This document shows, one piece after another, positions 190 through 16,854 of a stretch of DNA of 34,387 nt (the stretch's first letter is position 1; each line of letters begins with the position of its first letter). Where the stretch lies: NCBI GenBank assembly GCA_947451995.1, contig CANGCI010000003.1:1-34387 (forward strand). The letters are read 5' to 3'. The stretch comes from Comamonadaceae bacterium (GTDB lineage: Bacteria > Pseudomonadota > Gammaproteobacteria > Burkholderiales > Burkholderiaceae_C). The notes under the pieces were generated by a model. The model did not search any database. It was given only the letters and a program-made list of their open reading frames with translations, and was not told the origin of the DNA. The position numbers and the translations under genes are program-made.

Positions 190-311
190 TGGTGGGCCCA
201 CCAGGACTTGAACCTGGGACCAAAGGATTATGAGCAGGCTTAAGAAATAAAACCTATTACAAATCAATGATTTACAAGCGATCTACAGAGGTGTGGAAGT
301 AAATGTAGAAC
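190..311 (-). repeat. R1: 45-nt tRNA(CAT) 3' fragment (190..234) plus ~75-bp conserved element-end block (decayed copy)
   Basis: tggtgggcccaccaggacttgaacctgggaccaaaggattatgag is identical to 16778..16822; the following block aligns with those after 1242 and 8261. Confidence 0.9.
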
Positions 312-501
312 TTCAAATCAATGCATTTAATGGGTGACAAATCCACCCTCGGCCGTTAAAATTTAAGTCTAAAACCTGCACTGCAAGCCTATGTAGACGG
401 GGAAAAAACGACCGTCGATTTGATCAACGAAGTCAAAGCGAAGTATGTCGCGTTACAACGCGGATAATGTCTACGGCATCCCTAAAACTTAAACCAATTA
501 A

Positions 502-810
502 ATGCATTCTTCTATCGATCAGTACAAACTGGGTATATCCAATATTTGCAAACGCTACAGCGTTGCAAAATTAGATGTATTTGGCTCTGCTGCTAGGGAA
601 TATGACTTTAATCCCGCTAACAGTGATGCTGATTTTTTAATCGAATTTGCCTCCGAAGTGCAAGTCGGACTTAGTGAATTTATAGGTATTAAAACTGAAC
701 TGGAAAAATTACTAGGACGCAATGTCGATTTAATTGAGCCCGAAGCAATCGTCAATCCTTACGTTCTAGCCAGCATCAAGCGCAATCGCGAAACTATTTA
801 TGCAGCGTGA
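502..810 (+). CDS. mntA: MntA-like minimal nucleotidyltransferase (antitoxin)
   Basis: 102 aa with GSAAREYDFNPANSDADFLIEF (GSxAR...DxD motif); overlaps the HepT ORF by 11 nt. Confidence 0.85.
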   Translation: MHSSIDQYKLGISNICKRYSVAKLDVFGSAAREYDFNPANSDADFLIEFASEVQVGLSEFIGIKTELEKLLGRNVDLIEPEAIVNPYVLASIKRNRETIYAA

Positions 811-1150
811 CCCTCGCGCCTTCCTTTGGGACGTTCGGGAGTCAGCTTCAGCTATTCAATCGTTTGTTGCTGAATTGAACAGCGATACATATGCTTCGAA
901 TTCAATGGCTCAAGCAGCTTGCGAAAGAAAGTTTGAAATTATTGGCGAGGCCCTTAGTCAACTTTCAAAAGTTGATCCAAATTTGGCAGCAAGAATTCCC
1001 GAACTTTCACAAATTATTGCGTTTAGAAACCAACTCATTCATGGCTACGCCAAGATAAAGGCCAGCACAGTTTGGGCCACAATTCAAAGCTCACTGCCGC
1101 CACTGCTTACTTGCGTCAATGAATTACTCAATGAGTTTGGTGAAGTTTGA
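800..1150 (+). CDS. hepT: HepT-like HEPN ribonuclease toxin
   Basis: 116 aa with FRNQLIHGYAKI (RX4HXY motif), next to MntA. Confidence 0.87.
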   Translation: MQRDPRAFLWDVRESASAIQSFVAELNSDTYASNSMAQAACERKFEIIGEALSQLSKVDPNLAARIPELSQIIAFRNQLIHGYAKIKASTVWATIQSSLPPLLTCVNELLNEFGEV

Positions 1151-1160
1151 GGAAAAGAAA

Positions 1161-1188
1161 AAGCGCCTGCAATTTCTTGCAAGCGCTT
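1161..1188. terminator. Hairpin terminator between hepT and R2
   Basis: aagcgcctgcaa-tttc-ttgcaagcgctt, 12-bp stem with one mismatch. Confidence 0.6.
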
Positions 1189-1197
1189 GTTGACATG

Positions 1198-1320
1198 TGG
1201 TGGGCCCACCAGGACTTGAACCTGGGACCAAAGGATTATGAGCAGCTTTAAGATATAAAACCTATTGCAAATCAATAGGTTACACTTTGTTTACAGAGGT
1301 GTGGAAGCAAATGTGGAAGA
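1198..1320 (-). repeat. R2: tRNA(CAT) 3' fragment (1198..1242) plus conserved element-end block
   Basis: 45 nt identical to the intact tRNA, followed by aacctattgcaaatcaataggtt ... cagaggtgtggaagcaaatgtgga shared with R4. Confidence 0.92.
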
Positions 1321-1332
1321 CAACTATTCCAA

Positions 1333-1542
1333 TCACTTTTTTGTAAAACAATGCGCAACAATTGCATTGGCGTGCCCATGACCCAGACCATGTTCAATGT
1401 TGAGCCAATTGACAATTTCCATGTGCTTCATGCCTTTTTGTTTATGAACTAGTTTGATCCAATGGTCAATTGGCTGGCCATATTTCTTTTCAATGGATGG
1501 AAAATAAGAGGCTGGACCAGAAGCTTTTGTTTGTTCGCTCAT
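1333..1542 (-). CDS. DUF4287 domain-containing protein
   Basis: 69 aa; family resemblance (YFPSIEKKYGQPIDHWIKLV...GLGHGHANAIV). Confidence 0.75.
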   Translation of the reverse strand: MSEQTKASGPASYFPSIEKKYGQPIDHWIKLVHKQKGMKHMEIVNWLNIEHGLGHGHANAIVAHCFTKK

Positions 1543-1566
1543 CTGAATACTTTGAACAAAATTTAT

Positions 1567-1941
1567 CTAATTTGCAGACATACAAAAGACAGCCAATTTA
1601 TTGCCGTCTAAGTCTCTAAAGTAAGCGCCATAAAATTGGCCGCTCCTAGCACCAGGTGCACCTTCGTCTTTTGCACCTAGCGACAAAGCCTTGGCATGCA
1701 CAGCTTTAACTTGAGCTGGATCTGCAGCAGCAATGGCAACCATCGAACCATTGCCAATGGTGGCTGCATGACCATCAAAGGGCCTCATGACGCTAAACAT
1801 CGGTTTGTCGGCGGCAACTCCCCAACCCACACCCCGATCGCTTTTGAAAAAAGGTTTTGCATTCAGCAGAGCTAAGAGCTCACCGTAGAAATGAACTGCT
1901 TTTTCTAAATCGTTAGTTCCTACACATGTGTAACCAATCAT
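1567..1941 (-). CDS. VOC family (glyoxalase-like) protein
   Basis: 124 aa, MIGYTCVGTNDLEKAVHFYGELL...GAYFRDLDGNKLAVF, typical VOC fold pattern. Confidence 0.8.
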   Translation of the reverse strand: MIGYTCVGTNDLEKAVHFYGELLALLNAKPFFKSDRGVGWGVAADKPMFSVMRPFDGHAATIGNGSMVAIAAADPAQVKAVHAKALSLGAKDEGAPGARSGQFYGAYFRDLDGNKLAVFCMSAN

Positions 1942-2111
1942 GAAGTCTCCTGATGAAAATTTAAAATTAATGGTCGTTTGAAAAATTCATTGGGCAATTT
2001 AACGCGGTTTCCATCACTGGCCATTCCTGCAAGACTTAGCGTGACCGTCATATCGTCAAGCAAGTGGAATTCTTTGAAATAACCGACTTCGTATTTCTTA
2101 TTATTTTGATC

Positions 2112-3812
2112 TCAATGACTTGCACATTCAAAACTGGCAGCCAAATTCACTGGGCCTGCTTTATAACGAGGCCACAGAGGCCATTGGCACAGAGGAAGTG
2201 AGCGCGTTACTTGAAAAGGAGCTTTAACTTCCTGATCAACAACTTCTAAAGTTTCAGGTGCTTTTCCGCGTTCAACCCAATCCACCAGAACAGACAACAT
2301 GTCTACGTTTGAAGGCGCACCTGCGCCCACATGATCGACCCCTGGTGCCGCAAAAAGCCTAGCGAATTTCTTTGTATTTGCAGCTCCCATTTTCTCTTGA
2401 ACGGTCGCAAAGTATTGAATGCCCGCATAGGGGCTTTGTGCATAGTCGGCGAGATTCTCCAAAATTACCAACTTGCCGCCGTTGGCATTAAATTTTGACA
2501 AATCTGGATTTGTAGAGTCCATCAAATTTGATACCTCTAATACCCTGGATGCATTTGCTTGCACAGAATAGCGAGTCAAGTCAGCATTTGGATCGCGCGC
2601 ATAGAAATACTGAATAGCGCCTGCGCCATAAAACCATGCAATTCCGTTAGACATCTTTGGAGGGAATGCTGGAGGCTCTGTACCCAACCACCATGACTGC
2701 CATCCTCCAGTGGGCCCAAAAGATGGGATATTTTCTCCACTTGGACCTCGTGCAGGATATTCATTCACGCCATTCGCCAAGGTGATTGGCATCTTCATAG
2801 GGGAATGCAAAGTTTGCACAGCTTTAATTTGCGCGTCAGTCAAACATGAATTGCTGGCTTCGCCTTTGCAGCGAAGTTGAGTAACATCAAAGCGTTGCCT
2901 GCAACCAATAGGATCCGCAATCAATCCATCTACCAATCCATCTGAAGCATCACAAGCTGCTAAAACTGAATCATGAACCAGTTTTGTATGCGCAGGGCTT
3001 AGCCACGCCGCACCTCTAATGGCCATGCCGTCACGAAGTCCCGCATGCTGCAAACCCGTCCAAGAAATAACCGGGACGCGTGAAAAAATGCCATGAAAGT
3101 CATTTGGATAACGTTGTGCCATCGTAAGGCCTTCACGCCCACCTTCTGAACTGCCCATGAAATACAACTTATCTGGCTTTCGTCCATAGGCACGTTCTGT
3201 AATTACCACAGCAACATCGCGTACTTTTTTATACGAAGCGTGGGCAAAATTTAATAACGCTTCATCATTTAAAGCGAATGCTTGCGGAGGTTCATTCGGT
3301 GTATTTTGATGACCAGAATCCGTTCCCAACGTAACGAAGCCTTGGGCTAATGGCGAAGGTGTGTCAAAACGTTGTGCGGGAGGTAGACCTGTAGCGTTAA
3401 TGAGTGTTCCATTGAAACCGCCGCCACCGTATTGAACAGAGCGGCCGTTCCATTGGGAGGGTAAATTAACTTGAAACAAGATAGGCGGTGCTGTAGAACT
3501 GACGGGTGCAATTCGGCCTAAGATTTTGCAAAACGCTGGCGTGGCCGGCGAAACTCGGCTTGCAGGGGTTGGACCTCTTTCAGCAACAGCTAAATTTGTC
3601 GCAGCGACCCAAGTTGCCGAATCAATTGTTGCTGCACCACTTGGGATCCCAATTTCATTAGAAGCAACCCCCGCTGTTAAAGAGGCGCACCTGACTGCAG
3701 GATCATTCCCCAATGAGACATTTACTGGTACGGTATTTAAATGCGAACACGCACTCAAAAAAATGACTGCACTGAGTGGCACGTATAGGGTTTTTTGGAA
3801 AACATTTTTCAT
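2112..3812 (-). CDS. Tannase/feruloyl esterase family lipoprotein
   Basis: ORF given from 3929; the start at 3812 (MKNVFQKTLYVPLSAVIFLSAC) has an aaggag RBS and a lipobox LSAC; nucleophile motif GSSEGGREG. Confidence 0.8.
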   Translation of the reverse strand: MKNVFQKTLYVPLSAVIFLSACSHLNTVPVNVSLGNDPAVRCASLTAGVASNEIGIPSGAATIDSATWVAATNLAVAERGPTPASRVSPATPAFCKILGRIAPVSSTAPPILFQVNLPSQWNGRSVQYGGGGFNGTLINATGLPPAQRFDTPSPLAQGFVTLGTDSGHQNTPNEPPQAFALNDEALLNFAHASYKKVRDVAVVITERAYGRKPDKLYFMGSSEGGREGLTMAQRYPNDFHGIFSRVPVISWTGLQHAGLRDGMAIRGAAWLSPAHTKLVHDSVLAACDASDGLVDGLIADPIGCRQRFDVTQLRCKGEASNSCLTDAQIKAVQTLHSPMKMPITLANGVNEYPARGPSGENIPSFGPTGGWQSWWLGTEPPAFPPKMSNGIAWFYGAGAIQYFYARDPNADLTRYSVQANASRVLEVSNLMDSTNPDLSKFNANGGKLVILENLADYAQSPYAGIQYFATVQEKMGAANTKKFARLFAAPGVDHVGAGAPSNVDMLSVLVDWVERGKAPETLEVVDQEVKAPFQVTRSLPLCQWPLWPRYKAGPVNLAASFECASH

Positions 3813-3948
3813 ATTTTGATTCTCCTTATTAATTAAATAATTATTTCGGGACAAGCTAATCGCCACACTGGGTTTTACCCTATTCATGCTTGCTGTTTCG
3901 TTAAAGCTTGCATTCATCAATTGGCTCAAGGAGAGCGCAACATCTAAC

Positions 3949-3993
3949 TGACGCCCGATGACGGATTCGAACCTGCGGCTAAAGGATGATGGA
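3949..3993 (-). pseudogene. tRNA 3'-half-like relic
   Basis: Minus strand catcatcctttagccgcaggttcgaatccgtcatcgggcgtca resembles a variable region, T-loop (GGTTCGAATCC) and acceptor strand; T-stem imperfect, no 5' half. Confidence 0.35.
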
Positions 3994-4009
3994 TAGCGAC
4001 CGACATCAA

Positions 4010-5545
4010 TTAAACGGCAGGGCGCATTTCAAAGCTATCACTGATTCCATCGAATGCAGGTGGATGTGTGACAAGTTCTTTTAAGTCGGGACTAGTTTGC
4101 GTTAACATTTTGAGGTCAGGCATTGGTCTGCTACTGCCCTCCTGCAAAGTCCACCAACGCTCCATGGCTTTGGCCATAGACAACAGGCGCGCATCTTGGC
4201 GCAAAGGCGCAATGAGTTGGAGTCCAAATGGCATGCCCGTATCGTCCAACCCCATAGGTAAGGACAGTGCTGGGCACGTACTCAATGTAACCAAGTAAGT
4301 CAAACTTAGCCACTCGTAGTAATTTCGTTGCGGCACGCCATCTATCTGCTGGGCGTACGGCAACTTCCAAGGAAAGGGCGATAGCGGCGTCACTGGCGCC
4401 ACAATCAAATCAAAGTCTTCAAAATTGGTTTGAAACTTCTTAAATATTTGCGTTTGTGTCAGGTGAGCTTGCGCTCGATCGGCCAAGCCAAATTTTTCAG
4501 CAATCGTCAAGTTGGCTCGCACGTTAGCGCCAAGCGATTCTGGATGCGTTCGATTGACTTCTGCAAATCCTGCTAAAAAACTTTCGGCGCGAATCACGTC
4601 AAAACAATGATGGCCCTCGGACAAATCCCAATCTAACCACTGGCAACTTTTAACCTGCGACGACAACGCTTTGATCCTTTGATTAAAAGTGCTTCGAATC
4701 ATGGGATCTATTGCACAAGCACCAAAATCGGCAGTCACGCCAATACGCAGGTCTGAGAGGTCAAGCTCTGCCAATGGCCAAAAGTCACTGGCTGCAATGG
4801 GAATTCCAAGTGGGTCCATGGCATGACAACCCACACTGGCAGACATCATCAGCGCAGTATCTTCTACATTGCGGCCCATCGGTCCAAGAACAGAGATAGC
4901 AGACCAACCAAGACTGCGAGCATCGTTTGCAATCACGCCAGGCGATGGGCGAAGTCCTACAACACCACACAACGCAGCGGGCAAGCGCAATGAACCGCCC
5001 GTATCTGAGCCAGTACAGAGAGGCAACATGTCTGTGGCCAATGCTGCGGCCGATCCACCCGATGATCCTCCTGCATTGAGCTTTGGATTGAAAGGATTAC
5101 CTGTGGCACCCCAAACAGGATTGCGTGTGTTGCCACCTGCTCCCATGTCAGGCACATTAGTTTTGGCGGTCACGATGGCGCCAGCCTGTTTCAACCTTGA
5201 AACCAAAGCGTTATCTACTTTAGGCACATTACCTCGTAAGCGAACATTGCCGTAGGTGGTCAAGAGACCTGCGGTATCTTGCAAGTCTTTGACCCCCAGT
5301 GGCAGACCGTGCAGTGGTGCCAGCGCGTCTCCACTTCGCACTTTTTTTTCTGCCTCTAAAGCTGCGGCCTTGGCTCTAACGTCGTCTCTTGCGCAAATTG
5401 CATTGACCAAGGGATTCAATTGATCGATACGCGCCAAGCAAGCATCGAGCAATTCAACAGGCGAGATATCTCCGCTTGCAATCAGGTCACGCAATGCAAC
5501 AGCACTTTGCGCAACCAGGGCTGATTGTTGGTTTAGATCACTCAT
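4010..5545 (-). CDS. Amidase (amidase signature family)
   Basis: 511 aa with NAGGSSGGSAAALA signature and GSDTGGSLRLPAALCGVVGLRPS. Confidence 0.9.
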   Translation of the reverse strand: MSDLNQQSALVAQSAVALRDLIASGDISPVELLDACLARIDQLNPLVNAICARDDVRAKAAALEAEKKVRSGDALAPLHGLPLGVKDLQDTAGLLTTYGNVRLRGNVPKVDNALVSRLKQAGAIVTAKTNVPDMGAGGNTRNPVWGATGNPFNPKLNAGGSSGGSAAALATDMLPLCTGSDTGGSLRLPAALCGVVGLRPSPGVIANDARSLGWSAISVLGPMGRNVEDTALMMSASVGCHAMDPLGIPIAASDFWPLAELDLSDLRIGVTADFGACAIDPMIRSTFNQRIKALSSQVKSCQWLDWDLSEGHHCFDVIRAESFLAGFAEVNRTHPESLGANVRANLTIAEKFGLADRAQAHLTQTQIFKKFQTNFEDFDLIVAPVTPLSPFPWKLPYAQQIDGVPQRNYYEWLSLTYLVTLSTCPALSLPMGLDDTGMPFGLQLIAPLRQDARLLSMAKAMERWWTLQEGSSRPMPDLKMLTQTSPDLKELVTHPPAFDGISDSFEMRPAV

Positions 5546-6501
5546 TCAGTCGCAAGTCCCAGCTTGTCGATCAAGGGCTTCCAAACAGCAATGTCACGTT
5601 CTGCAAACGCCAAGACATCTGTGGGTTTACTATCGATCAAACTGACATTCATTCCCGTCATTCTTGTGCTGTAGGCACTGTCAGTACGGCACTTGTTAGA
5701 GGCCACATTCAGCTTTTGAATGGTTTCGGGAGGTGTCCCTTTTTTAGCCACGACCGCAATCCAAGCAGGGCGAGCGAGCACTGCAGGGCCTCCTGCTTCT
5801 GCAATGGTAGGGACATCTGGCATGAGGCTTGAGCGCTCTGAGGAAAACACAGCCAATGGCACTAACTTACCAGCTTTCACTTGCGCCGCCGCCGTGCCGA
5901 TTACAAGGGTCATCGTTTGAATTTGGCTACCCATCAAAGCAGTGAGACCAGCGGCTTCGCCCACAAAAGGAATATGAGTGGCGGGCCATTTCATCGACTC
6001 CGCAAGGGCCGTCGTTAGCAAGTGTGCAGGACTACCTTTGCCGGGGGAACCAAAATTAAGTCCACCATTTTGAGTGGCGGCAATTTTTCCCAAATCCGAC
6101 AAACGCTGAATGCCAGAGCCACTGGGGACTACAAGCACCAAGGGCGAAGTACCGATCACTGCAATACCGTCAAAATCTTTGAGTGGATCATAGGGGAGTT
6201 GGCGGTGCACAAAGGGGGTAATGGTCATCTGCGACATCCCGATAGTCATCACATTGGCGCCATCTGCAGGCAAACCTTTGAGCTGGTTGATGGCCAGGAT
6301 ACCGTTCGCGCCAGGTTTGTTGACAACAACCATAGGCTGTGCAACTTGTCTCGATACACATTCTGCCCAAGCCCTGGTCATCATGTCAGAACCACTGCCG
6401 GGTGGCTGCTGTGCAATCACTTGAAGAGGCGTCTGTGCAATCGCACCAAAAGTTTGTAATAAAACTCCAAGTGCTGCAATTTTGATAGCGGGTAATTTCA
6501 T
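5542..6501 (-). CDS. Bug-family tripartite tricarboxylate transporter substrate-binding protein (TctC-like)
   Basis: 319 aa, signal peptide then VIAQQPPGSGSDMMTRAWAE...VVVNKPGANG; 4-nt overlap with the amidase. Confidence 0.9.
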   Translation of the reverse strand: MKLPAIKIAALGVLLQTFGAIAQTPLQVIAQQPPGSGSDMMTRAWAECVSRQVAQPMVVVNKPGANGILAINQLKGLPADGANVMTIGMSQMTITPFVHRQLPYDPLKDFDGIAVIGTSPLVLVVPSGSGIQRLSDLGKIAATQNGGLNFGSPGKGSPAHLLTTALAESMKWPATHIPFVGEAAGLTALMGSQIQTMTLVIGTAAAQVKAGKLVPLAVFSSERSSLMPDVPTIAEAGGPAVLARPAWIAVVAKKGTPPETIQKLNVASNKCRTDSAYSTRMTGMNVSLIDSKPTDVLAFAERDIAVWKPLIDKLGLATE

Positions 6502-7130
6502 TGATTAGTCTCCGTTGTTTTAAGGAAAAATTTCAAAGTATCAGACAGCACACGCAGTTGAGGCTGTATCGTGCTTTCATCTGTGAAGGGTGTGAGTAGA
6601 CCTAGCCCGCGCAATGACGACAAAATGAATTGCATACGCTCTACCCCCTGAGCTTGTGTCGCCAACTCCGGAAAGCTTTCGCTCATTTTGCCTAGCAATG
6701 TTTGTCCTAGCTCAGCTCGCCTTGCTTTGATGTGCTCAGTCAACAGGGCGTCATCACGAACTGCAAGATAGGCAGCCCATGCCACCGTAAATCGAGGTTG
6801 GCCATACAACTGCTGCCACGCCTTGTCTACAAAGTGATTTGCACGTTTGGTTTTAGACCAACTTGCTGGCGGCCAAAAATCGCTGCCATCGCTGAGCTTT
6901 GTAACCAAATGCGCCACTACATCCAACATCAAAGCGGCTTTAGAACCGAAGTGATGCTGGACAGCGCCTGTCGTCATATGAGCAACACGTGCCACTTCAT
7001 GGATCGACAATTGACCATGTCCTTTAGACAGAAGAATTTCTTCCGCTGCATTCAACAATCTGGTTCTTGTTTCTGCGCTTCTAATTTGATGACGTGTTTC
7101 GCGAATGATTACGTTACTCATGTAATGCAT
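6498..7130 (-). CDS. TetR/AcrR family transcriptional regulator
   Basis: N-terminal HTH RTRLLNAAEEILLSKGHGQLSIHEVARVAHMTTGAVQHHFGSKAALM; possible start MSNVIIRE at 7121. Confidence 0.88.
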   Translation of the reverse strand: MHYMSNVIIRETRHQIRSAETRTRLLNAAEEILLSKGHGQLSIHEVARVAHMTTGAVQHHFGSKAALMLDVVAHLVTKLSDGSDFWPPASWSKTKRANHFVDKAWQQLYGQPRFTVAWAAYLAVRDDALLTEHIKARRAELGQTLLGKMSESFPELATQAQGVERMQFILSSLRGLGLLTPFTDESTIQPQLRVLSDTLKFFLKTTETNQ

Positions 7131-7145
7131 TATGTTCGTAATGCA
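7126..7145. promoter_or_regulatory. Candidate TetR operator
   Basis: TGCATTA-tgttcg-TAATGCA, perfect 7-bp inverted repeat at the tetR start. Confidence 0.5.
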
Positions 7146-7241
7146 ATTGAACTACGCTCGGATAAACCCTGTGTAGTGACGACACACATGCCTTCGGGTC
7201 AAAGATGCTCAGAGTGAGAGATTAAAAGAAGGAGACAAGAA

Positions 7242-7267
7242 AAAAGCGACTCGAATGAGTCGCTTTT
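7242..7267. terminator. Hairpin terminator just downstream (minus strand) of R3
   Basis: AAAAGCGACTC-gaat-GAGTCGCTTTT, perfect 11-bp stem. Confidence 0.75.
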
Positions 7268-7271
7268 AAAG

Positions 7272-7297
7272 TGGTGGGCCCACCAGGACTTGAACCT
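7272..7297 (-). repeat. R3: truncated tRNA(CAT) 3' fragment
   Basis: tggtgggcccaccaggacttgaacct (26 nt) identical to the tRNA 3' end; sequence beyond diverges until atgagcagg at 7315. Confidence 0.85.
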
Positions 7298-7310
7298 CAT
7301 TCAAAAAAAG

Positions 7311-8000
7311 TTACCAATGAGCAGGTTTTTGCGCAGGCTTCCTCTTTGTATTGACACTTTTAGGCAACTGAGAAAGTCCAAGTTCGATATCCAAAATATG
7401 CTGACGAACCCAATCTACTTTGTTAGTCAATCTCTTGTTAGAAACAGCACCTCCAGTTAACCCCTTATCTCGCAGAGGTACGACAAGGCCTAGTCGTACA
7501 TTGGGCGCATCCAATCGGACCAAATGCAACGCTGGCTCCAGATCGCTGTCGTTTGAACAAATGACTTGCTGATTGCATTCACCACGTATTGCATCTCTAT
7601 AAACTTGTAATGCCAAGTTCACGTCGGTTTGTTTCTCCTCGATCATCCAGACCGGTGTGAGGTTCTGTTTGTTAGGCTCTTCACCATCAACATGAGAAGG
7701 CACGTTGGTTGTGCCAAAGATGTGAAATCCCTGAATGATTTGAACCAACTCTCCATGAGTCGCTTTTAAGGCACGGTGATATTGCGTCTGCGCATGTGCT
7801 GATGCTTCACCATGCCGTGCGTAGGAAGCTTTGACTGGTGAAGTGAAGTACTTGATGCAAATGACGGTTGCACTGGGATCTTGAGGTCTGAGAATTTGGT
7901 CGCGAAACAAAGTCCCCAAATCTAACCATTTATAAGGCGTCCCCTTGAGCCTTGAGTAATAGAGGTTGTAGCCGTCTACATAAATGATTGTTGGTGACAA
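7311..8000 (-). CDS. NYN domain-containing protein (PIN-like nuclease fold)
   Basis: 229 aa, IIYVDGYNLYYSRLKG...EEKQTDVNLALQVYRDA...VICSNDSDLEPALHLV. Confidence 0.85.
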   Translation of the reverse strand: MSPTIIYVDGYNLYYSRLKGTPYKWLDLGTLFRDQILRPQDPSATVICIKYFTSPVKASYARHGEASAHAQTQYHRALKATHGELVQIIQGFHIFGTTNVPSHVDGEEPNKQNLTPVWMIEEKQTDVNLALQVYRDAIRGECNQQVICSNDSDLEPALHLVRLDAPNVRLGLVVPLRDKGLTGGAVSNKRLTNKVDWVRQHILDIELGLSQLPKSVNTKRKPAQKPAHW

Positions 8001-8019
8001 TTTGTGCGCCTAGAAAGTA

Positions 8020-8045
8020 AAAAGGCCATCTTTCGATGGCCTTTT
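8020..8045. terminator. Hairpin terminator-like structure
   Basis: AAAAGGCCATC-tttc-GATGGCCTTTT, perfect 11-bp stem. Confidence 0.7.
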
Positions 8046-8216
8046 CGCCCTAAGCCCGAGCCAACTAAATGACACTGCGAAGGGATTGTGCTTGTATTCT
8101 AGTGCGTTTGTTTGAAGTCTTGACGACTACATCTACTTTTGTAACTAAATGAAAGGTGCTAACAAATTGACCGGTACAAACTGTAAACGATGTCTCCAGT
8201 ATGTACCCTTTTAAAG

Positions 8217-8340
8217 TGGTGGGCCCACCAGGACTTGAACCTGGGACCAAAGGATTATGAGCAGCTTCAAGAAATAAAACCTATTGCAAATCAATAGGTT
8301 ACAAGTGATTTGCAGAGGTGTGGAAGCAAATGTGGAACTT
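8217..8340 (-). repeat. R4: tRNA(CAT) 3' fragment (8217..8261) plus conserved element-end block
   Basis: 45 nt identical to the intact tRNA; downstream block nearly identical to R2, including the 9-bp inverted repeat AACCTATTG/CAATAGGTT. Confidence 0.92.
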
Positions 8341-8346
8341 ATTAAG

Positions 8347-9117
8347 TCAATGAATATGCGTCCCACCGTTGACGTCGATGTTAGAGCCAGTCACGAATCC
8401 CGAAAGCTCTGACGACAAGAACAAACAAGCCCCCGCCATTTCACGCGTTGTGCCAACGCGCTTCAAGGGAATGGCGTCCACAATGCCTTTCAAGCGCTCT
8501 TCTGACAAGCCGTCCAACATGGGCGTTTCAATCATGGCTGGGCATATTGAATTGGCCCTAATTCCCAGCGCAGCAAATTCCCGCGCAATGCTCTTCGTCA
8601 AACTGAGCATGCCGCCTTTAGATGCTGCGTAATGCGAACCGCCCACCAGGCCACCGCCTCTCTGTGCAGCAGAAGAAGCGACATTCACAATGGTCCCTGA
8701 TTTTTTTTCGACAAATACTTTCAAAACACTCTGGCAAATGTAGAAAGCGCCTTTGAGGTTGATGTCAAACATCAAATCCAAATCTTTTTCTGCAAGCTCT
8801 AGGATGGGTATATTTCGAACTATGCCAGCAGAGTTCACCAAGCAGTCAATGGTGCCATGCAAGGCAACAACCTCACTGACCAACTTATCGCAGTCGGTCG
8901 GACTGCTGATGTCGCAACTGAATCCATGCACAGAAACTGAATTTCCAAGCTTGCTTTGAATCGATAACTTCACCGCGTTCAAAGTTTCAGCATCCATTTT
9001 CACATCGGCCACAACAACTTTGGCACCATGCTCAGCAAACAACTCAGCTGTGCCATACCCGATGCTGCGCAAGGATGCTGCGCCCAAAATCAAACAAACT
9101 TTATCTTTAAGCAACAT
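8347..9117 (-). CDS. SDR family oxidoreductase
   Basis: Start MLLKDKVCLILGAASLRSIGYG at 9117 preferred over 9264; motifs YAASKGG and NSAGIVRN. Confidence 0.87.
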   Translation of the reverse strand: MLLKDKVCLILGAASLRSIGYGTAELFAEHGAKVVVADVKMDAETLNAVKLSIQSKLGNSVSVHGFSCDISSPTDCDKLVSEVVALHGTIDCLVNSAGIVRNIPILELAEKDLDLMFDINLKGAFYICQSVLKVFVEKKSGTIVNVASSAAQRGGGLVGGSHYAASKGGMLSLTKSIAREFAALGIRANSICPAMIETPMLDGLSEERLKGIVDAIPLKRVGTTREMAGACLFLSSELSGFVTGSNIDVNGGTHIH

Positions 9118-9127
9118 AAATTTCCTA

Positions 9128-10051
9128 TCAGTGTGTGGGCGCTGGCATTTCAGTGACGGTCCATTCAAGTACCGACGAATGCTTTGGCAACCATCCCAAC
9201 TCTTGTCTGGCGCGCACTGCGCGGACTCGGCTGTTACTGCCCAAAGAGAAATAGGCCATACCAACTCCCCATTGCGACGCGGCCACTTCCGGCGCTAAGT
9301 GCTCGAGCTGAGAAAACTGAAGTCGCTGAGTGAGTGCTTGACCTAACTCCAGAAATGAGGCTTCGCCGTTGGCCGCAAAATAAAAGGCACCCGCAGGAGC
9401 TTTCTCTAAAGCCAAACAATACAGATCGACAACGTCGTCAATGTGAACGTTGGACCAAGTATTTTTTCCCTCACCCACAATTTGAACCACGCCATGCTTC
9501 ATCGCGTTGGTTACCAAGAAAGGGATTTGAACACTTGTGGTGTGAAGCCCTTTGCCAACGCCATAAATTAGGCTAGGACAAATGACCACAGATTTGACAC
9601 CTCGTGACGCCGCATTCAAAACCTTAAGGTCAATGTTGCGGCGAGATTGCTTCAGTTCATGCACAACCAAAGGTGTCGATTCGTCAAAAATCATTTCCGA
9701 CTTGATGCTGCCACGTGCATCGTCACCTACGATACTTGAACCGCTTGTATGTATGAATGGTTTTTGAGAATCCTCTATGGCTTTCAACATGACTTCGACA
9801 GACGCCGCATGGTCCGCACTTGCAGTGTTGATGACAGCATCGGCGTTGATTGCCTCACGCTCTAAAAGGGCTAGATCATCGAGATCACCCACTACAGGCT
9901 CAATACCTAGCGCAGTCAGTTGCGCAGCCTTATCAACATTTCGAACAAGGCCTCGCACAAGGCAACCATTGGCCACGAGTTTGATGGCCAAGGATCCGCC
10001 AATGAACCCACTGGCCCCAGTTAAGAAAACAGTTTTAACCTGGCTCATCAA
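9128..10051 (-). CDS. NAD-dependent epimerase/dehydratase (extended SDR)
   Basis: 307 aa, VFLTGASGFIGGSLAIKLVANG Rossmann motif. Confidence 0.85.
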   Translation of the reverse strand: MMSQVKTVFLTGASGFIGGSLAIKLVANGCLVRGLVRNVDKAAQLTALGIEPVVGDLDDLALLEREAINADAVINTASADHAASVEVMLKAIEDSQKPFIHTSGSSIVGDDARGSIKSEMIFDESTPLVVHELKQSRRNIDLKVLNAASRGVKSVVICPSLIYGVGKGLHTTSVQIPFLVTNAMKHGVVQIVGEGKNTWSNVHIDDVVDLYCLALEKAPAGAFYFAANGEASFLELGQALTQRLQFSQLEHLAPEVAASQWGVGMAYFSLGSNSRVRAVRARQELGWLPKHSSVLEWTVTEMPAPTH

Positions 10052-11943
10052 GTCCCAAATCCTGTTGAAAGTCCTGGAATAGCCGCCACGATGGCAGTTC
10101 CCACAACGAGAGACAAGATATAGCCCAGAATTGGCTTCATGCCCTTGCTAGGACTGACTCGGCTGATAGCACACGCTGCGTAATAGCCCACGCCAAATGG
10201 CGGTGCAAACAAACCAATGCCCATGGCCAAAACAACCACCATGGAGTAATGAACATCATTGATGCCAAATTGCTTTGCTATGGGAAACAGCAAGGGGCCA
10301 AACACCACAATGGCAGGAATGCCTTCCAGCACGCTACCCAAGATGATGAAGGCGATGATCGAAACAATCATGAATCCATTGGCGCCGCCTGGTAACTGAG
10401 ACATGGCCATGGCCAATTGACGCGAAAAGCCGGACTGCGTCAACGCCCATGCCATGCCAGTAGCTGTACCGATAATTAACAAAATGGCCCCCGACAATGC
10501 AGCAGTGTCTACAAGCGCCGGCCACAGCTTTCTGTAATCCAACTGTCGATACAAGAACGCACCAGCTAATATGGCGTAGGCAATGCCAATGGTAGAGACT
10601 TCAGTGGCGGTCGCCACACCCTCCACCACCGCAGCGCGAATGATGAATGGCAGTGCCAACGCCGGACTCGCAATTAGAAATGCACGTCCGATTTCGGGCC
10701 AACTGGCACGCACAACGCCCGTCATCTCAACTTTACGATTTCGCAGCCAAATCACAAAACAAAGCAATGCAGCCAATACAAGTGCAGGCACCAAGCCACC
10801 AGAAAACAAAGCCGCAATGGAAATACCGGTCACAGAGCCAATGGTAATTAGCACAATACTCGGGGGAATGGTTTCAGTTTGTGCGCCAGTAGCAGCAAGC
10901 AAAGCGACCATCTCACCTTCATCCACACCTTGTTTGCGCATTTCAGGGAAAAGCACAGGTGCAATAGCGGCCATATCAGCGGCCTTGGAACCTGAAATAC
11001 CAGACACCAGGTACATGCCACCAACCAATACGTAAGACAAACCACCCCTTACATGGCCTAACAAGGAGGCCAAGAAACGCACCATAGCCTTGGCCATGCC
11101 GCTCAACTCAAGCACTACACCCAAGAACACAAACAAAGGCACGGCCAATAAGACCAAATGCGACATGCCTTCATCCATGCGTCCCACAATGACACTGGTT
11201 GGTTTTGAGGTGGTCAACGCGATATAGCCAAAAGTAGCCAAACCGAATGCGAATGCGATGGGCACGCCCGTCAAAACCAAGATGGCGACGATGACCACAA
11301 AGAAAATGAACAAGTTCAAATTGCCCAAATCTTGAAACAAGGGGGTCATGGCATACAAAACACCCACGGAAACTACAGCAATTCCAATGGCTGTCAGCAA
11401 GCGCTTCAAACTGCTTTCTTCTGCAAACTTCAAAACAGCGCTGATGCCCATTAGAAAAATACCCACTGGCAGCGCAGAGGCGCGCCAAGCATTTGAAATC
11501 TCTAATGATGGTGAGGTGACGATGGCTTCATCAATCGCAAACTCTAATGCTGGATGGCCCACCAAGACCAGAAATGTGGCACCGGCCACCACGCCCAATA
11601 AATCAAAAAACACCCGTTTCTCTGGCGATGCCAAATCGACCAAGGCCGTCATGCGCATATGCGCCGAGCGTCTAAAGGCAATCACTGCACCTAACATTGC
11701 CAGCCACAAGAACATCACTGAAGCCAATTCATCAGACCAAGTGAGCGGACGGTGCAATGCATACCGACTGACCACTCCGCTGAAAAGCACAATGATTTCT
11801 AAGAAAACCAAAATGGCTGCAGGCACTTCTGTCACGAATTCCAATGCAGCTTCTAGCTTTGCAACAATGCGCAACCATGCGCTGTTTTGCTGCGCTGCCC
11901 TTTTTGACGCATCTGCGTCCTGTGTGTGAGCTGACGTATCCAA
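10048..11943 (-). CDS. TRAP transporter permease, fused small (DctQ) and large (DctM) subunits
   Basis: 631 aa; N-terminal DctQ-like (RYALHRPLTWSDELASVMFLWLAMLGAVIAFRR) followed by DctM-like (GVPIAFAFGLATF...GMYLVSGISGSKAADMAAIAP). Confidence 0.9.
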   Translation of the reverse strand: MDTSAHTQDADASKRAAQQNSAWLRIVAKLEAALEFVTEVPAAILVFLEIIVLFSGVVSRYALHRPLTWSDELASVMFLWLAMLGAVIAFRRSAHMRMTALVDLASPEKRVFFDLLGVVAGATFLVLVGHPALEFAIDEAIVTSPSLEISNAWRASALPVGIFLMGISAVLKFAEESSLKRLLTAIGIAVVSVGVLYAMTPLFQDLGNLNLFIFFVVIVAILVLTGVPIAFAFGLATFGYIALTTSKPTSVIVGRMDEGMSHLVLLAVPLFVFLGVVLELSGMAKAMVRFLASLLGHVRGGLSYVLVGGMYLVSGISGSKAADMAAIAPVLFPEMRKQGVDEGEMVALLAATGAQTETIPPSIVLITIGSVTGISIAALFSGGLVPALVLAALLCFVIWLRNRKVEMTGVVRASWPEIGRAFLIASPALALPFIIRAAVVEGVATATEVSTIGIAYAILAGAFLYRQLDYRKLWPALVDTAALSGAILLIIGTATGMAWALTQSGFSRQLAMAMSQLPGGANGFMIVSIIAFIILGSVLEGIPAIVVFGPLLFPIAKQFGINDVHYSMVVVLAMGIGLFAPPFGVGYYAACAISRVSPSKGMKPILGYILSLVVGTAIVAAIPGLSTGFGT

Positions 11944-12013
11944 GGGGGCGTCTCCAAACGTAAAAAAGAGGAGCCGGCCCTAGGGGACGGCTCCGAACAG
12001 AACTTACAAAAAC

Positions 12014-13063
12014 TTAGGCCATTTTTCCGGCGTACTTTTCAAGGATGGTCCATGTTTCTGGACCAAACTTTTTCTGCCATTCAGCAAAGTAACCTGCTTT
12101 TTGCAAAGCTTCGCGGAAAGGCTTGGTGTCAACACGATTGAACTGCATGCCTTGACCTTTGAGTTTTGTCTCAAGCGACGCATTCAAGACATCATGTACA
12201 TTTCGCTGTTTCGAAACATTGGCATCGATGATTTTGGTTGCCAATGCTCGCAAATCTTCTGGCAGAGCATTCCAGTTCTTTTTGTTACCCACCAATGCAA
12301 AGTACTCCCACATGTGGGATGTCAATGAGCAGTATTTTTGAACTTCGTACAACTTGACAGCATCGATGGTGGGCAATGCATTTTCTTGACCATCCACCAC
12401 CTTGGTTTGCAAGGCTGTGTACAACTCTCCAATTGGCACTGTTGCAGGTGATGCGTCCAGGCCCTTGAACATCGAAGTCCAGAGGGGTGTGGCAGGCACT
12501 CGAATTTTCATGCCTGCCAAATCTTTCGGTGAATTGATCGGTTTTGTGGAATGCGTAATTTGACGGAAACCGTGATCGAACACATGACCCACTTGCACCA
12601 AGTTCACCTTGTCAAAGGCGCCGCGAATGTGGTTGCCCAAATCCCCATCCATGGCTTTCCACACTGTGGCGTAGTCAGGGAATGCAAACGCAATAGAGTT
12701 GATGGCTGCAGTGGGCGTAAGGTTGCCGTAAATGGAGCCTGCAGTACATACAAAATCAATTGCGCCTGAACGAACTTGCGACAAGGTGTCAGTGTCGCTG
12801 CCCAATTGACCGCTTGGATAGACCTCAATGTTCAAGCGACCATTGGATTCTTTCAAAATTTCAGCACAAGCGGCTTTCAAGGCCACTGGTGTTGGATGGC
12901 TTTCCGGCAATGTAATCGCAATTTTCAAATTGAATTTGCCAGCACCTTGTGCCAAAGCAATGCTTGGTACAACCGAAGCTGCTGCCACGCTTGCCATCAC
13001 TTTCAATGCGCCGCGACGACCGGCTTGTGTTGTGGCCATTTCGCCATTCAGGGTTTGATTCAT
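12014..13063 (-). CDS. TRAP transporter substrate-binding protein (DctP family)
   Basis: 349 aa; signal with RR; LGSDTDTLSQVRSGAIDFVCT...KIRVPATPLWTSMFKGLDASPATVPIGELYTALQTKVVDGQENAL. Confidence 0.92.
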   Translation of the reverse strand: MNQTLNGEMATTQAGRRGALKVMASVAAASVVPSIALAQGAGKFNLKIAITLPESHPTPVALKAACAEILKESNGRLNIEVYPSGQLGSDTDTLSQVRSGAIDFVCTAGSIYGNLTPTAAINSIAFAFPDYATVWKAMDGDLGNHIRGAFDKVNLVQVGHVFDHGFRQITHSTKPINSPKDLAGMKIRVPATPLWTSMFKGLDASPATVPIGELYTALQTKVVDGQENALPTIDAVKLYEVQKYCSLTSHMWEYFALVGNKKNWNALPEDLRALATKIIDANVSKQRNVHDVLNASLETKLKGQGMQFNRVDTKPFREALQKAGYFAEWQKKFGPETWTILEKYAGKMA

Positions 13064-13098
13064 TTTGTGTCTCCAGTTAATTTAGGTCGGTGTATCAA

Positions 13099-13521
13099 TC
13101 AAAAAACGTTGGGTTGGTGCACTTCGATGCAATGACCATCTGGGTCATATAAAAACACTTGGTGCCAACCAGGAATGGCCCAGCAGCCGTAATCTGCGTA
13201 CCGAATGCCTAAGGCATCGCACTTGCGCATAAAGCCTTGAATGTCGTCAGTACGAAAGCAGAAGTGGCCGTGTCCCATCGGGTTCACAAACTTCTTCATC
13301 TTGAAACCAGTGTCCAGATCACGCTCTGACCAGTGGAATTCAATGTCACCATCAGTCAAAAAGTCGACCTTACCGGTGTAAGCGCGGTCATCGCGCTGAC
13401 GGCTAATGACGGTGTGCTCGTTGTCCGTGATCGTTCCCAGCTCAAACAAGGTTTTGTAAAACTTGGTCAAACGGGATAAGTTGTCGGTACAAATGTTCAT
13501 GTGGTGAAACTTGAATTCCAT
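13099..13521 (-). CDS. VOC family protein
   Basis: 140 aa, HHMNICTDNLSRLTKFYKTLF...HFCFRTDDIQGFMRKC...FLYDPDGHCIEVHQ. Confidence 0.85.
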   Translation of the reverse strand: MEFKFHHMNICTDNLSRLTKFYKTLFELGTITDNEHTVISRQRDDRAYTGKVDFLTDGDIEFHWSERDLDTGFKMKKFVNPMGHGHFCFRTDDIQGFMRKCDALGIRYADYGCWAIPGWHQVFLYDPDGHCIEVHQPNVF

Positions 13522-13733
13522 AGCGCTTTCTTTCAGTTAGGTTGTTTTTTTCACCTTCAAAAGGCCCTTCAAAGGACCTCCTGTTTCAGTGTTCTGGGAG
13601 CTTTTTCTCAGCTCTGGGTTGAAGATAAACCAAACCACATATGAAGTAAACAATTCGCCAATGAAATTTAATAAGTGTTATCCCTAGTTTTTTCCGCCTT
13701 AAATTTATCAAACCACACTTTATTGAATTACCT

Positions 13734-13751
13734 ATGAATGGTACGATTCAT
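13734..13751. promoter_or_regulatory. Inverted repeat immediately upstream of the MaoC-like gene
   Basis: ATGAAT-ggtacg-ATTCAT. Confidence 0.35.
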
Positions 13752-13753
13752 TT

Positions 13754-14620
13754 ATGGAAATAATTGAAGAAGATGCACCTTTGGTGCTAGCCCCCTCCAC
13801 TAGCAGCGTTCGTACAGAAATCTGCAGCATTGCTTCGGTCAGAAGAGTTGCGGCCATGCTCGACATCGAACCCGACACCATCGCAGAGGGTGACCCTTTG
13901 CCAAGAGGTTGGCAATTCATCTTGATGGCAGCAGACACGCGTCGTTCGTCACTCCGTGCTGATGGTTTTCCAGGGCTTGGCGTGACCATGCCAGACCTTG
14001 GTTTGCCACGATTGTTGTTAGGCAGCAGATCAGTTGATTACCTCAAAGACATTCCCATTAGCGCCAGTCTCATTCGCCAGAGTGCGATTAAAGACATCAC
14101 TCAAAAAATGACCAAGTCAGGACCGATGGCTGTCGTGTCTATTCAACATGAGTTGCGCTTAAAAGAATCAGTTCAAGCCGCACTGATCGAGACACAAACC
14201 TATTTGCTACTGCCAGCAACGAAAGGCGCCCCAGCATCCAATGCTTCCGATTACGCCGGGCCGATCAAAGGGCATGTCATGAAGACGGTTGTGCCCGATG
14301 AGACCTTCCTCTTTCAATATTCAGCACTTGGCTTTAACTCACACAAGATTCACATTGACAGAGCACACGCCAGAAACGTGGAAGGCTTTCCCGACCTGAT
14401 CGTGAATGGCGGCCTGGTCACCTTGCTTTTGACTGAATTTTTGCGAAATGAAATTGGTGTGAAGCCGTCCGCATTGCGAGTTCGCCACATGGCGCCGCTT
14501 TACTGCGGCAGTCCCATCACCATGGTGGCCAATCAAGTGGATTCGAAATGGCACCTGCAAGCCTTCGACAACCGATCAATTCTGAGTGTAGACATGGAAG
14601 TAGAAACTCATGACCTTTAA
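13754..14620 (+). CDS. MaoC/HTD2-like acyl-CoA hydratase (FAS1-like dehydratase domain family)
   Basis: 288 aa; FLFQYSALGFNSHKIHIDRAHARNVEGFPDLIVNGGLVTLLL resembles the mesaconyl-C4/itaconyl-CoA hydratase family; next to a CoA-transferase. Confidence 0.7.
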   Translation: MEIIEEDAPLVLAPSTSSVRTEICSIASVRRVAAMLDIEPDTIAEGDPLPRGWQFILMAADTRRSSLRADGFPGLGVTMPDLGLPRLLLGSRSVDYLKDIPISASLIRQSAIKDITQKMTKSGPMAVVSIQHELRLKESVQAALIETQTYLLLPATKGAPASNASDYAGPIKGHVMKTVVPDETFLFQYSALGFNSHKIHIDRAHARNVEGFPDLIVNGGLVTLLLTEFLRNEIGVKPSALRVRHMAPLYCGSPITMVANQVDSKWHLQAFDNRSILSVDMEVETHDL

Positions 14621-15815
14621 AGCATTGGCTGGCATTCGTGTCTTAGACCTCACCAGTGTTGTGGTGGGTCCTGTTTGCACATGGCGCTTGGGGCAATACG
14701 GCGCAGAAATCATCAAAGTAGAAAATCCTGAAGGCGACCTGATGCGTGGACTGGGTGGCCAATCCCCTACTGGCCAGCACTCTGGCGCCTACTTGCACTT
14801 GAACCGAGGAAAACGCAACATTTGCCTCGACCTCAAAAAAGAAGGTGCGATGGAGGTCATGAATCGTTTGATCGAATCAGCTGATGTGATTGTGGCCAAC
14901 ATGCGGCCACAAGCTTTGAAAAAATTGGGTATTGATTCAGAAACAGTTCGAAACAAATACCCTAACAAAATTTACTGTTTGATCACAGGCTACGGCACTG
15001 ACGGCCCCTACGCAGGTATGCCTACATACGATAGTGTGGTCCAAGGTGTAACAGGAATGGCTGGCTTGTTTTTACAACGCGATGGTCAGCCCAACTACGT
15101 CCCGATGCTGATTTGCGATCACGTGGCCGGTGAAATTTCTGCGGGTGCTATTTTGGCGGCCATTGCCGAGAGAAATGTAAGCGGCAAAGGTTGCAGCATT
15201 GAAGTGCCTATGTTCGAAACCATGGCCACATTTGTTTTGCAAGAACACTTAGCAGCACAAAGTTTTGATCCGCCTGTTGGCCCTGTTGGTGATTTGCGCT
15301 TATTGAGTCCGCACAACAAACCTGTTCAAACTGGTGATGGTTGGATTTCATTTACGGTCAATACAGACCCGCAAGTGCGCGCGTTTTTGACAGTGACAGG
15401 ACGAAATGACTTGCTCAGCGATGAGCGTTTTAACTCTGTTGCTGCACGCGCTACTAACGTGAAAGAATGGTTTGCCATTCGTGGTGCGCCACTGACACAT
15501 AAATCAACGCAAGAATGGCTTGACTTACTCCAGTCGGCAGACATCGCAGCACAAGCTTGCCACACGCTGGCAACACTTCCGAACGACAAACACCTCAAGG
15601 CTGTGGGCTTGATTCAGTATGAAGATCACCCAACGGAGGGTAAGACTGCAGCCATTCGATCATCTATCAAAGTTGACAGTGCGCATCCTCAACTTCGGGA
15701 ACCATCGCAACCCAAAGGTTGGGAAACACGCAAATTATTAGAAGAAATGGGCTACTCAACGGATGAAGTGGCAGTACTCTTTGCAAAAGGTTCTGCAGTG
15801 ACTGCTGCTATTTAA
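14610..15815 (+). CDS. CaiB/BaiF family (type III) CoA-transferase
   Basis: 401 aa; LAGIRVLDLTSVVVGPVCTWRLGQYGAEIIKVENPEGDLMRG, LNRGKRNICLDLK. Confidence 0.93.
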   Translation: MTFKALAGIRVLDLTSVVVGPVCTWRLGQYGAEIIKVENPEGDLMRGLGGQSPTGQHSGAYLHLNRGKRNICLDLKKEGAMEVMNRLIESADVIVANMRPQALKKLGIDSETVRNKYPNKIYCLITGYGTDGPYAGMPTYDSVVQGVTGMAGLFLQRDGQPNYVPMLICDHVAGEISAGAILAAIAERNVSGKGCSIEVPMFETMATFVLQEHLAAQSFDPPVGPVGDLRLLSPHNKPVQTGDGWISFTVNTDPQVRAFLTVTGRNDLLSDERFNSVAARATNVKEWFAIRGAPLTHKSTQEWLDLLQSADIAAQACHTLATLPNDKHLKAVGLIQYEDHPTEGKTAAIRSSIKVDSAHPQLREPSQPKGWETRKLLEEMGYSTDEVAVLFAKGSAVTAAI

Positions 15816-15834
15816 TTGTTAGCTCAATAACCGG

Positions 15835-16674
15835 CTAGGCGAAGGGCGAACTTTTGGCAGTTCCGCCCACTTTGGACGAGACTGCACGTGCCGCTAGGCC
15901 CAATGCCGCGGTTACTTCTGGAATAGATTTCCGTTGATTTTGATCAATGCGCTCTGCATAAGGCACAGTCAAAGCAGCGAGCGCTCTTCCTTGTGTATCC
16001 AAAATGGGAAAACTAACAGCATACAAACCACGCACTTGCACGCTTGGGATAGATTCGAAACCAACTTTTCGAATCGTCTCCAAAATGGTATTGATCTGAG
16101 GGTCAGAGTGCTCGGGGCGTCTTTGCACCGACTCTTCAAGCCATAGCTTAGAAGTTTCTGGTGTTTGAAAAGCCACAAGAACTCGTCCAGATGCAGAGAT
16201 AAGGACATCTAACTCTGAACCAGTACGCACACTGAATCCCATGCCACTAGGCGCATCCACTTTAGCCAAGACCAATTGTTTGCCTTGAGAATAAACGGTC
16301 AAATGGCAAGACTGATCTAAATCTTTGGCCAGTCTTTGCATGACTGGCAATGCTTCGGCCAACAAACGCTGCGTGGGGGGACTAATATGCGCCAACTCGA
16401 AGAGCTTGGTTGTAATAGCGTATGAGTTTTCATCAACTTGCGAAACATAGTTGCGATCGACCAAGCAATTCACCATTCGGTAAATTTCACTGACGCTTCT
16501 ATCAAGGCTTTTTGCTATCTCTTTTTGGCTTAAAGCGCGGTCACTTTTGCAAAGCATTTCAAGAATATCAAGACCTTTTTCTAGCGCCGGTGCGGAGTAA
16601 ACCCTACGTTCTGATTCACCCGCGTCATCTTGAGTCTTCAATTGTTTAGCCATTCTGAATTCACCAATAAACAA
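15835..16674 (-). CDS. IclR family transcriptional regulator
   Basis: 279 aa; YSAPALEKGLDILEMLCKSDRALSQKEIAKSLDRSVSEIYRMVNCLVDRNYV; alternative start MAKQ at 16653. Confidence 0.9.
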   Translation of the reverse strand: MFIGEFRMAKQLKTQDDAGESERRVYSAPALEKGLDILEMLCKSDRALSQKEIAKSLDRSVSEIYRMVNCLVDRNYVSQVDENSYAITTKLFELAHISPPTQRLLAEALPVMQRLAKDLDQSCHLTVYSQGKQLVLAKVDAPSGMGFSVRTGSELDVLISASGRVLVAFQTPETSKLWLEESVQRRPEHSDPQINTILETIRKVGFESIPSVQVRGLYAVSFPILDTQGRALAALTVPYAERIDQNQRKSIPEVTAALGLAARAVSSKVGGTAKSSPFA

Positions 16675-16734
16675 GTTTTTTTACTGGAGCAATCATAACG
16701 GGCTGGACAGCGGCTTCAAGCTCTAACGGTTCTC

Positions 16735-16770
16735 CCAAAACAAAACCCCCGACATTTCTGAAGGGGGTTT
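16735..16770 (-). terminator. Rho-independent terminator of the tRNA(CAT) gene
   Basis: Minus strand AAACCCCC-loop-GGGGGTTT followed by TGTTTTG. Confidence 0.75.
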
Positions 16771-16777
16771 GATGTAT

Positions 16778-16854
16778 TGGTGGGCCCACCAGGACTTGAA
16801 CCTGGGACCAAAGGATTATGAGTCCTCTGCTCTAACCAACTGAGCTATAGGCCC
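16778..16854 (-). tRNA. tRNA with CAT anticodon (tRNA-Ile2 or elongator tRNA-Met)
   Basis: GGGCCTATAGCTCAGTTGGTTAGAGCAGAGGACTCATAATCCTTTGGTCCCAGGTTCAAGTCCTGGTGGGCCCACCA, full cloverleaf with encoded CCA. Confidence 0.95.

Follow-up and report, generated by a model that had tools for sequence, protein, structure and literature searches.

What does a conserved block of DNA do beside a fragment of a tRNA gene? In a 34,387-nucleotide stretch of a Comamonadaceae genome (the window), such a block lies at 8262-8340 on the minus strand and adjoins a 45-nt tRNA fragment, R4 (8217-8261, minus strand), which is identical to tRNA positions 33-77. The original prediction had located this block and had seen it again at R2 and, decayed, at R1. 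Both observations were reproduced: the 133-nt stretch that includes the tRNA part recurs at 1189-1321 (R2) and, decayed, at 181-313 (R1), with identities to R4 of 94% (122 nt) and 90% (133 nt), respectively. The tRNA 3' halves of these copies, again positions 33-77, occupy 1198-1242 and 190-234 on the minus strand, and a further fragment, R3 (7263-7297), has no block beside its tRNA piece. We propose, with a probability of roughly 0.85, that the block is the L-arm of the attachment (att) site of integrative elements that insert in a lambda-like manner into one essential gene of freshwater Limnohabitans, a CAU tRNA gene (probably tRNA-Ile2), and that serial insertion of such elements built the window.

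Layout and conservation of the block

In the R4 block, the two minus-strand TTCCACA copies begin at 8337 and 8325 and form direct repeats 12 bp apart, as predicted (arm-type-like site 1, 8331-8337; site 2, 8319-8325). The corresponding sites of the R2 block lie at 1312-1318 and 1300-1306 on the same strand. The 34-kb window contains nine copies of TTCCACA, eight on the minus and one on the plus strand, and five of the nine are inside blocks. The pairing of the repeats thus stands, but the 7-nt unit was drawn too short, for in relatives the unit spans 12 bp, (G/T)TTGCTTCCACA.

An alignment of 33 block copies, 32 of them non-redundant, was used to analyze the layout. Conservation among the non-redundant copies sets in sharply at the first repeat and continues up to the core, with the ~30-40 bp upstream unconserved. 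Read on the tRNA strand, the order is TTGCTTCCACA, TTTGCTTCCACA, spacer, AACCTATTGATTT, spacer and CTCATAA, and the spacing among the two 12-bp repeats, one IHF consensus and the core is fixed. Site 1 is near-invariant, and its distance to the core is 76 bp in 30 of the 33 copies. In 31 of 33 copies, the strand opposite AACCTATTGATTT matches the IHF consensus exactly, compared with 1% of shuffled blocks. This site lies at 8288-8301 (minus strand) in R4, where the opposite strand AATCAATAGGTTA fits WATCAANNNNTTR, and at 1269-1281 (minus strand) in R2. The core CTCATAA, which is the anticodon loop, occupies 8255-8261 (minus strand) at the junction of the block and the tRNA 3' half; tRNA identity begins here at most junctions, and it would be the crossover segment. 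Direct-repeat arm-type sites at a fixed distance from the core, and an IHF site between arm and core, are the features of a lambda-type att site, and both are found here, the latter by consensus. The consensus and the conservation together suggest that the arms would be bound by an integrase and the IHF site by IHF. The conserved spacing and the matching layout in the L-arms of integrase-bearing elements also support the predicted role of the TTCCACA pair, as arm-type-like sites.

The distribution of the block was analyzed with a 76-bp version (the minus strand of 8262-8337). It is present in 30 of 90 genomes of the genus (Limnohabitans) and in 11 of 84 from another Comamonadaceae genus, and in a family-wide sample it was found in only 5 of 401 genomes, one of them a weak match. 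Nine public contigs carry it, including one of Limnohabitans sp. MMS-10A-178. Recurrence on this scale is not due to chance. Searches of phages and plasmids for the block returned no match, and viral contigs searched with three patterns yielded unrelated sequences only. The block usually adjoins a tRNA 3' half that begins at the 7-nt anticodon loop CTCATAA, and about 34 of 43 copies are followed by a 3' half that is intact, intron-bearing or recognisably decayed. Although nearly all genomes of the genus match the tRNA, 60 of the 90 have no block match, and the block is therefore not part of the native locus. These counts disagree with the two pictures that had been set against the original prediction, namely a block spread widely without tRNA fragments and a native part of the tRNA locus. 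Separately, a subset of loci (L008, L020, L086, L089, L266 and L268) shares the sequence AGTCCGCAGCTTGGTC...AATAAACG about 30 bp before arm 1.

Integrase-bearing relatives and the target tRNA

The complete genome G408 revealed an integrase-bearing element in the same tRNA, which is split after position 41. The order is tRNA 1-41, an IHF consensus, the pair CTACACACCGTCTACACAC (R-arm), a promoter-like region and a complete new tRNA that contains a group I intron, followed by a 208-aa ORF, a 466-aa integrase (P0001), cargo that includes restriction-modification-like genes, the L-arm (CACTACACACTTTGCTACACACC ... TTGATTT ... CTTCTCATAATCC) and the native 3' half. Homologues of P0001 with arm-like pairs nearby were identified in G407 (98%), G190 (95%), G185 (95%), G261 (81%), G344 (66%), G174 (55%) and G539 (49%). 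The homologues near an R-arm-type pair are 437-473 aa long and 48-98% identical to P0001. Most of the integrase elements sit at the CAU tRNA and one (G174) at tRNA-Lys. A partial homologue was found in G524, and more distant ones (~30-37%) have tRNA-Phe, Lys, Leu, Asn, Cys and CAU tRNAs as neighbours. L-arms were recovered for six related elements (G408, G407, G190, G261, G344 and G174); their first arm is 76-77 bp from the core, counted in G261 from the second of three arms, and CTACACAC and CTTACACAC are examples of the variant repeats. Some of the integrase-bearing relatives match the IHF consensus imperfectly. The integrase gene lies near the end opposite the L-arm, beside the R-arm. Several of the elements split the old tRNA gene and bring a complete substitute for it, which is often interrupted by a group I intron.

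P0001 alone matched nothing in Pfam or NCBIfam. A 95% homologue reaches the PF00589 cut-off when its neighbouring pieces are summed, and 13 of 16 members of the integrase family match PF00589. The best match of the integrase profile in the PDB is Tn1549 Int, a weak one (E 0.013). An AlphaFold model built from 16 sequences (pLDDT 80, pTM 0.53; pTM 0.34 with an input of 8 close sequences) matches Tn1549 Int, lambda Int, XerH and Cre with E values from 8e-8 to 6e-4, the first two being the best PDB matches. By profile and predicted fold, the P0001 family is a lambda/Tn916-type tyrosine recombinase, and the N-terminal strands and helix of the model suggest an arm-binding domain. Searches with the integrase returned no match in phages and one distant match in plasmids.

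No integrase with TTCCACA-type arms was found among the genomes searched, and a close TTCCACA pair is likewise missing near the 345-350-aa integrases of G486, G490 and G491. We infer the cognate enzyme of the window blocks from the relatives above, whose arm letters differ. Some genomes (G417, G429, G436 and G448) carry a 197-bp unit upstream of the tRNA that consists of tRNA 1-39, an IHF consensus, GCTTCCACACCGCTTCCACAC, a promoter and the next tRNA; this unit is the R-arm side with TTCCACA letters. Short tyrosine recombinases of ~190-230 aa occur in integrase-bearing elements (L121:11462-12034 and other loci), sometimes on the contig of the 450-aa integrase, and are possibly a second recombinase. 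A second arm pair (TCTTCCACAC TGC TTCCACAC TCTTGGTTCG) lies ~210 bp downstream of the tRNA T-arm in other arrays (L134:5034, L120:6537, L125:10226 and L081:11340) and resembles the arm-like site that precedes the integrase gene of G408-type elements.

The intact tRNA of the window (16778-16854, minus strand; core CTCATAA at 16816-16822) has a CAT anticodon and was called 'Met' by ARAGORN. In Azoarcus, tRNA-Ile(CAU) is known to harbour a group I intron in its anticodon loop, and such introns occur in the tRNA of relatives (Rfam RF00028; E 1e-11, 49.3 bits against a gathering score of 50 bits in one, and E 3.5e-6, 31 bits in a second). Since this precedent exists and the loop and the variable region of the window tRNA fit tRNA-Ile2, we read it as probably tRNA-Ile2, which reads AUA. 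One L-arm type is found next to 3' halves that derive from several alleles of the tRNA and show paired (compensating) differences in the T-stem. In several loci hrcA is directly upstream of a CAU tRNA that belongs to another allele (GGGGCGTTAG... type, which is decayed in L090), and the window hrcA is ~6.5 kb from the tRNA.

At L121:6015-6301, L119:5563-5893 and L135 ~9320-9655 (minus strand), CAU tRNAs of an element or of the host are interrupted in the anticodon loop, at the position of the att core, by group I introns of at least two types. That the intron protects the new tRNA against insertion is made less likely by the L-arm of L012 (the site of L090 and G453), which adjoins an intron-bearing 3' half. 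Our literature search found no description of an intron combined with an attachment site.

Units of the window and their mobility

The window is arranged as tRNA, E4, E3, E2, E1 and E0, the last being an ArsC-type unit. E4 (8262-16777, minus strand) carries SDR, epimerase, TRAP transporter, CoA transferase, IclR and other genes but no recombinase and ends in the L-arm block; a related unit is present in G329. E3 (7263-8216, minus strand) consists of an NYN-like ORF (7311-8000; PADLOC HEC-09 match) and the truncated, blockless fragment R3. E2 (1243-7262, minus strand) carries TetR, a TctC receptor, an amidase, a tannase and others and ends in the R2 L-arm. E1 (235-1197, minus strand) holds an MNT/HepT-like pair (502-1150, plus strand) and a decayed L-arm (sites at 310 and 298) and is shared with G329 at ~95-98%. 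The first gene of the E1 pair matches PDC-S09, and the start of E3 (~8170-8210, minus strand) carries a GTACATACTGGAGACATCGTTTACAGTTTGTACC motif that is conserved after the tRNA 3' half in L014, L023, L124, L042 and L096 as well. Both ends of the window units carry the core repeat, but of the two arms only the L-arm is present, and none of the units encodes a recombinase, their cargo being metabolic or defence-like. With regard to a prophage or satellite, neither phage genes nor phage relatives were recognised: the block and the integrase had no match in phages or viral contigs, and the cargo is metabolic. The shared att layout beside unrelated cargo agrees with the earlier suggestion of a single element family.

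How could such a row arise? The complete att site would consist of two direct-repeat arm-type sites, an IHF site, the 7-bp core CTCATAA, an opposing IHF site and the second arm pair (R-arm). An integrase with separate arm- and core-binding parts would bind the arms and the core, IHF would bend the DNA, and the integrase would recombine the core of the element with the tRNA by crossover at the anticodon loop. The element would replace the broken gene by bringing a complete promoter-plus-tRNA copy or, in the other layout, would bring the 3' part only. Later elements would insert into the newest tRNA copy, and the old 3' halves would pile up downstream of one working tRNA, each with an L-arm before it and the remains of the previous element after it. 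The window units would have lost, or would never have had, an integrase and would need the helper integrase of a related element to move; to this extent they may behave like cis-mobilizable elements.

A unit of this kind was found in the isolate Limnohabitans sp. MMS-10A-178 (G417), where 14.8 kb with both arm regions contain only metabolic ORFs among those listed and no recombinase. The region of the unit has no PF00589 gene and the P0001 homologues of this genome are only distant (~34%), so that its movement would need a helper. With both arm regions and no recombinase among its listed ORFs, the unit corresponds to a CIME, an att-flanked element that lacks an integrase and transfer genes of its own. 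A unit with both arm regions is also present in G436. We tentatively propose, at somewhat less than even odds, a cassette system in freshwater Limnohabitans, in which units without an integrase of their own retain complete lambda-like att arms, rely on the helper integrases of related elements to move them in trans and repeatedly replace the host CAU tRNA (probably tRNA-Ile2) with an element-borne copy, in some cases one with a group I intron at the core.

The arrays may instead be purely fossil, in which case the L-arms mark past insertions, the integrase was later lost by deletion and nothing moves now. This differs from the serial-insertion model above only in present mobility, and we regard it as a serious possibility that falls short of an even chance. 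Several observations agree with it. Beside the tRNA, no R-arm can be recognised for E4, the newest unit of the window, and the units may thus be remnants that no longer move. Decay is seen in R1 and in some other copies. Searched with P0001 at E 0.1, the arrays showed no remnant of an integrase apart from matches in G408 and in two loci retrieved because of other integrases, and the window genome (81% complete) has no P0001 homologue and only two PF00589 proteins, both of the XerC/XerD type. However, the spacing of arm, IHF site and core is nearly perfect in many copies with different cargo, the G417 and G436 units keep both arm regions, and integrase elements that look intact occupy that very tRNA in related genomes of the genus.

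Spread of the arrays by homologous recombination between the repeated tRNA pieces and the cargo, with the block as a passenger, is unlikely as the sole process. E3 and the ArsC-type E0 occur in G471 in the window order with E4, E2 and E1 absent, as deletion between repeats would give, and homologous recombination may act in addition to integration. Yet the precise core junctions, the att layout common to integrase-bearing elements and the 3' halves of different tRNA alleles would all be left unexplained, and serial integration at the tRNA is the reading that we retain.

The inverted repeat and comparison with known systems

The original prediction had also described a conserved 9-bp inverted repeat, AACCTATTG-ATTTG-CAATAGGTT (8278-8300, minus strand), as a possible accessory binding site or terminator of a lost integrase gene ending just before it. 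The repeat is perfect in R4 and R2 and complete in 6 of the 33 copies. Its left arm, which lies in the IHF-consensus site, is conserved at 78-100% per position, and its right arm, unconserved in the family, at 56-94%. The pairing amounts to 76.3% against 75.1% after random re-pairing, and the observed value was reached by 216 of 2000 re-pairings. On this comparison the inverted repeat is not maintained in the family, and only the left arm is conserved as the IHF-consensus site. The accessory-site alternative thus survives as a predicted IHF site in the left half. A covarying hairpin was rejected together with the terminator, for the pairing is not above shuffles and the right arm is free to vary. 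In R4 and R2 a T-rich stretch follows the perfect repeat. A role as rho-independent terminator, whether for the cargo or for an integrase gene since lost, with the TTCCACA pair being incidental, is highly improbable, because so few copies keep it, the left arm is near invariant whereas the right arm varies, and the integrase genes of relatives adjoin the opposite (R) arm. Likewise, an integron attC site, which would involve a folded strand and IntI, is not indicated by a repeat that is not maintained and by PF00589 genes of the window genome that are only of the XerC/XerD type and on other contigs.

The att site resembles those of lambda Int and Tn1549/Tn916 Int in the fixed order of its arm-type sites, which are direct repeats, its IHF site and its core, and the integrase family of the relatives resembles lambda Int and Tn1549 Int by fold and by PF00589 in most members. 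In contrast to the lambda/Tn916-type systems, the core here is the anticodon loop of a CAU tRNA, the elements bring a whole tRNA gene and the window units are integrase-less. At ssrA of Dehalococcoides, tandem islands are bounded by RNA-gene repeats and many units are without an integration module, for which the authors invoke cis-mobilizable elements and accretion (PMC3146451). The window is similar in these respects, but the recombinase at ssrA is a serine recombinase (PMC3146451), whereas the present family keeps tyrosine-type att arms and has its tRNA exchanged for a copy that the element brings. Among aquatic bacteria, additive flexible islands are described at tRNA genes in Alteromonas (PMC4119200) and, as fGI-2 with tRNA-Lys repeats, in Methylophilaceae (PMC10872708); in the portions consulted they likewise have rows of cassettes after a tRNA that are delimited by tRNA-end repeats and carry metabolic genes. 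Those portions do not describe an att arm architecture, integrase-less units with shared arms or tRNA replacement (PMC4119200, PMC10872708). Tycheposons, compared here by their description (PMC10872708), are also cargo islands at tRNA genes with tyrosine recombinases, but the window units carry no recombinase. Within the literature searched, the family itself, the retention of att arms in integrase-less units and the exchange of the tRNA for a complete, sometimes intron-bearing copy appear to be new.

Collectively, a repeat that had no explanation beside tRNA fragments becomes a defined attachment-site arm, linked to a family of integrases that is hardly detected by Pfam and NCBIfam. The array shows how metabolic gene clusters can accumulate at a single tRNA gene in abundant freshwater bacteria, and it provides a testable case of mobile elements that would swap out a host tRNA, in several cases for an intron-bearing copy.
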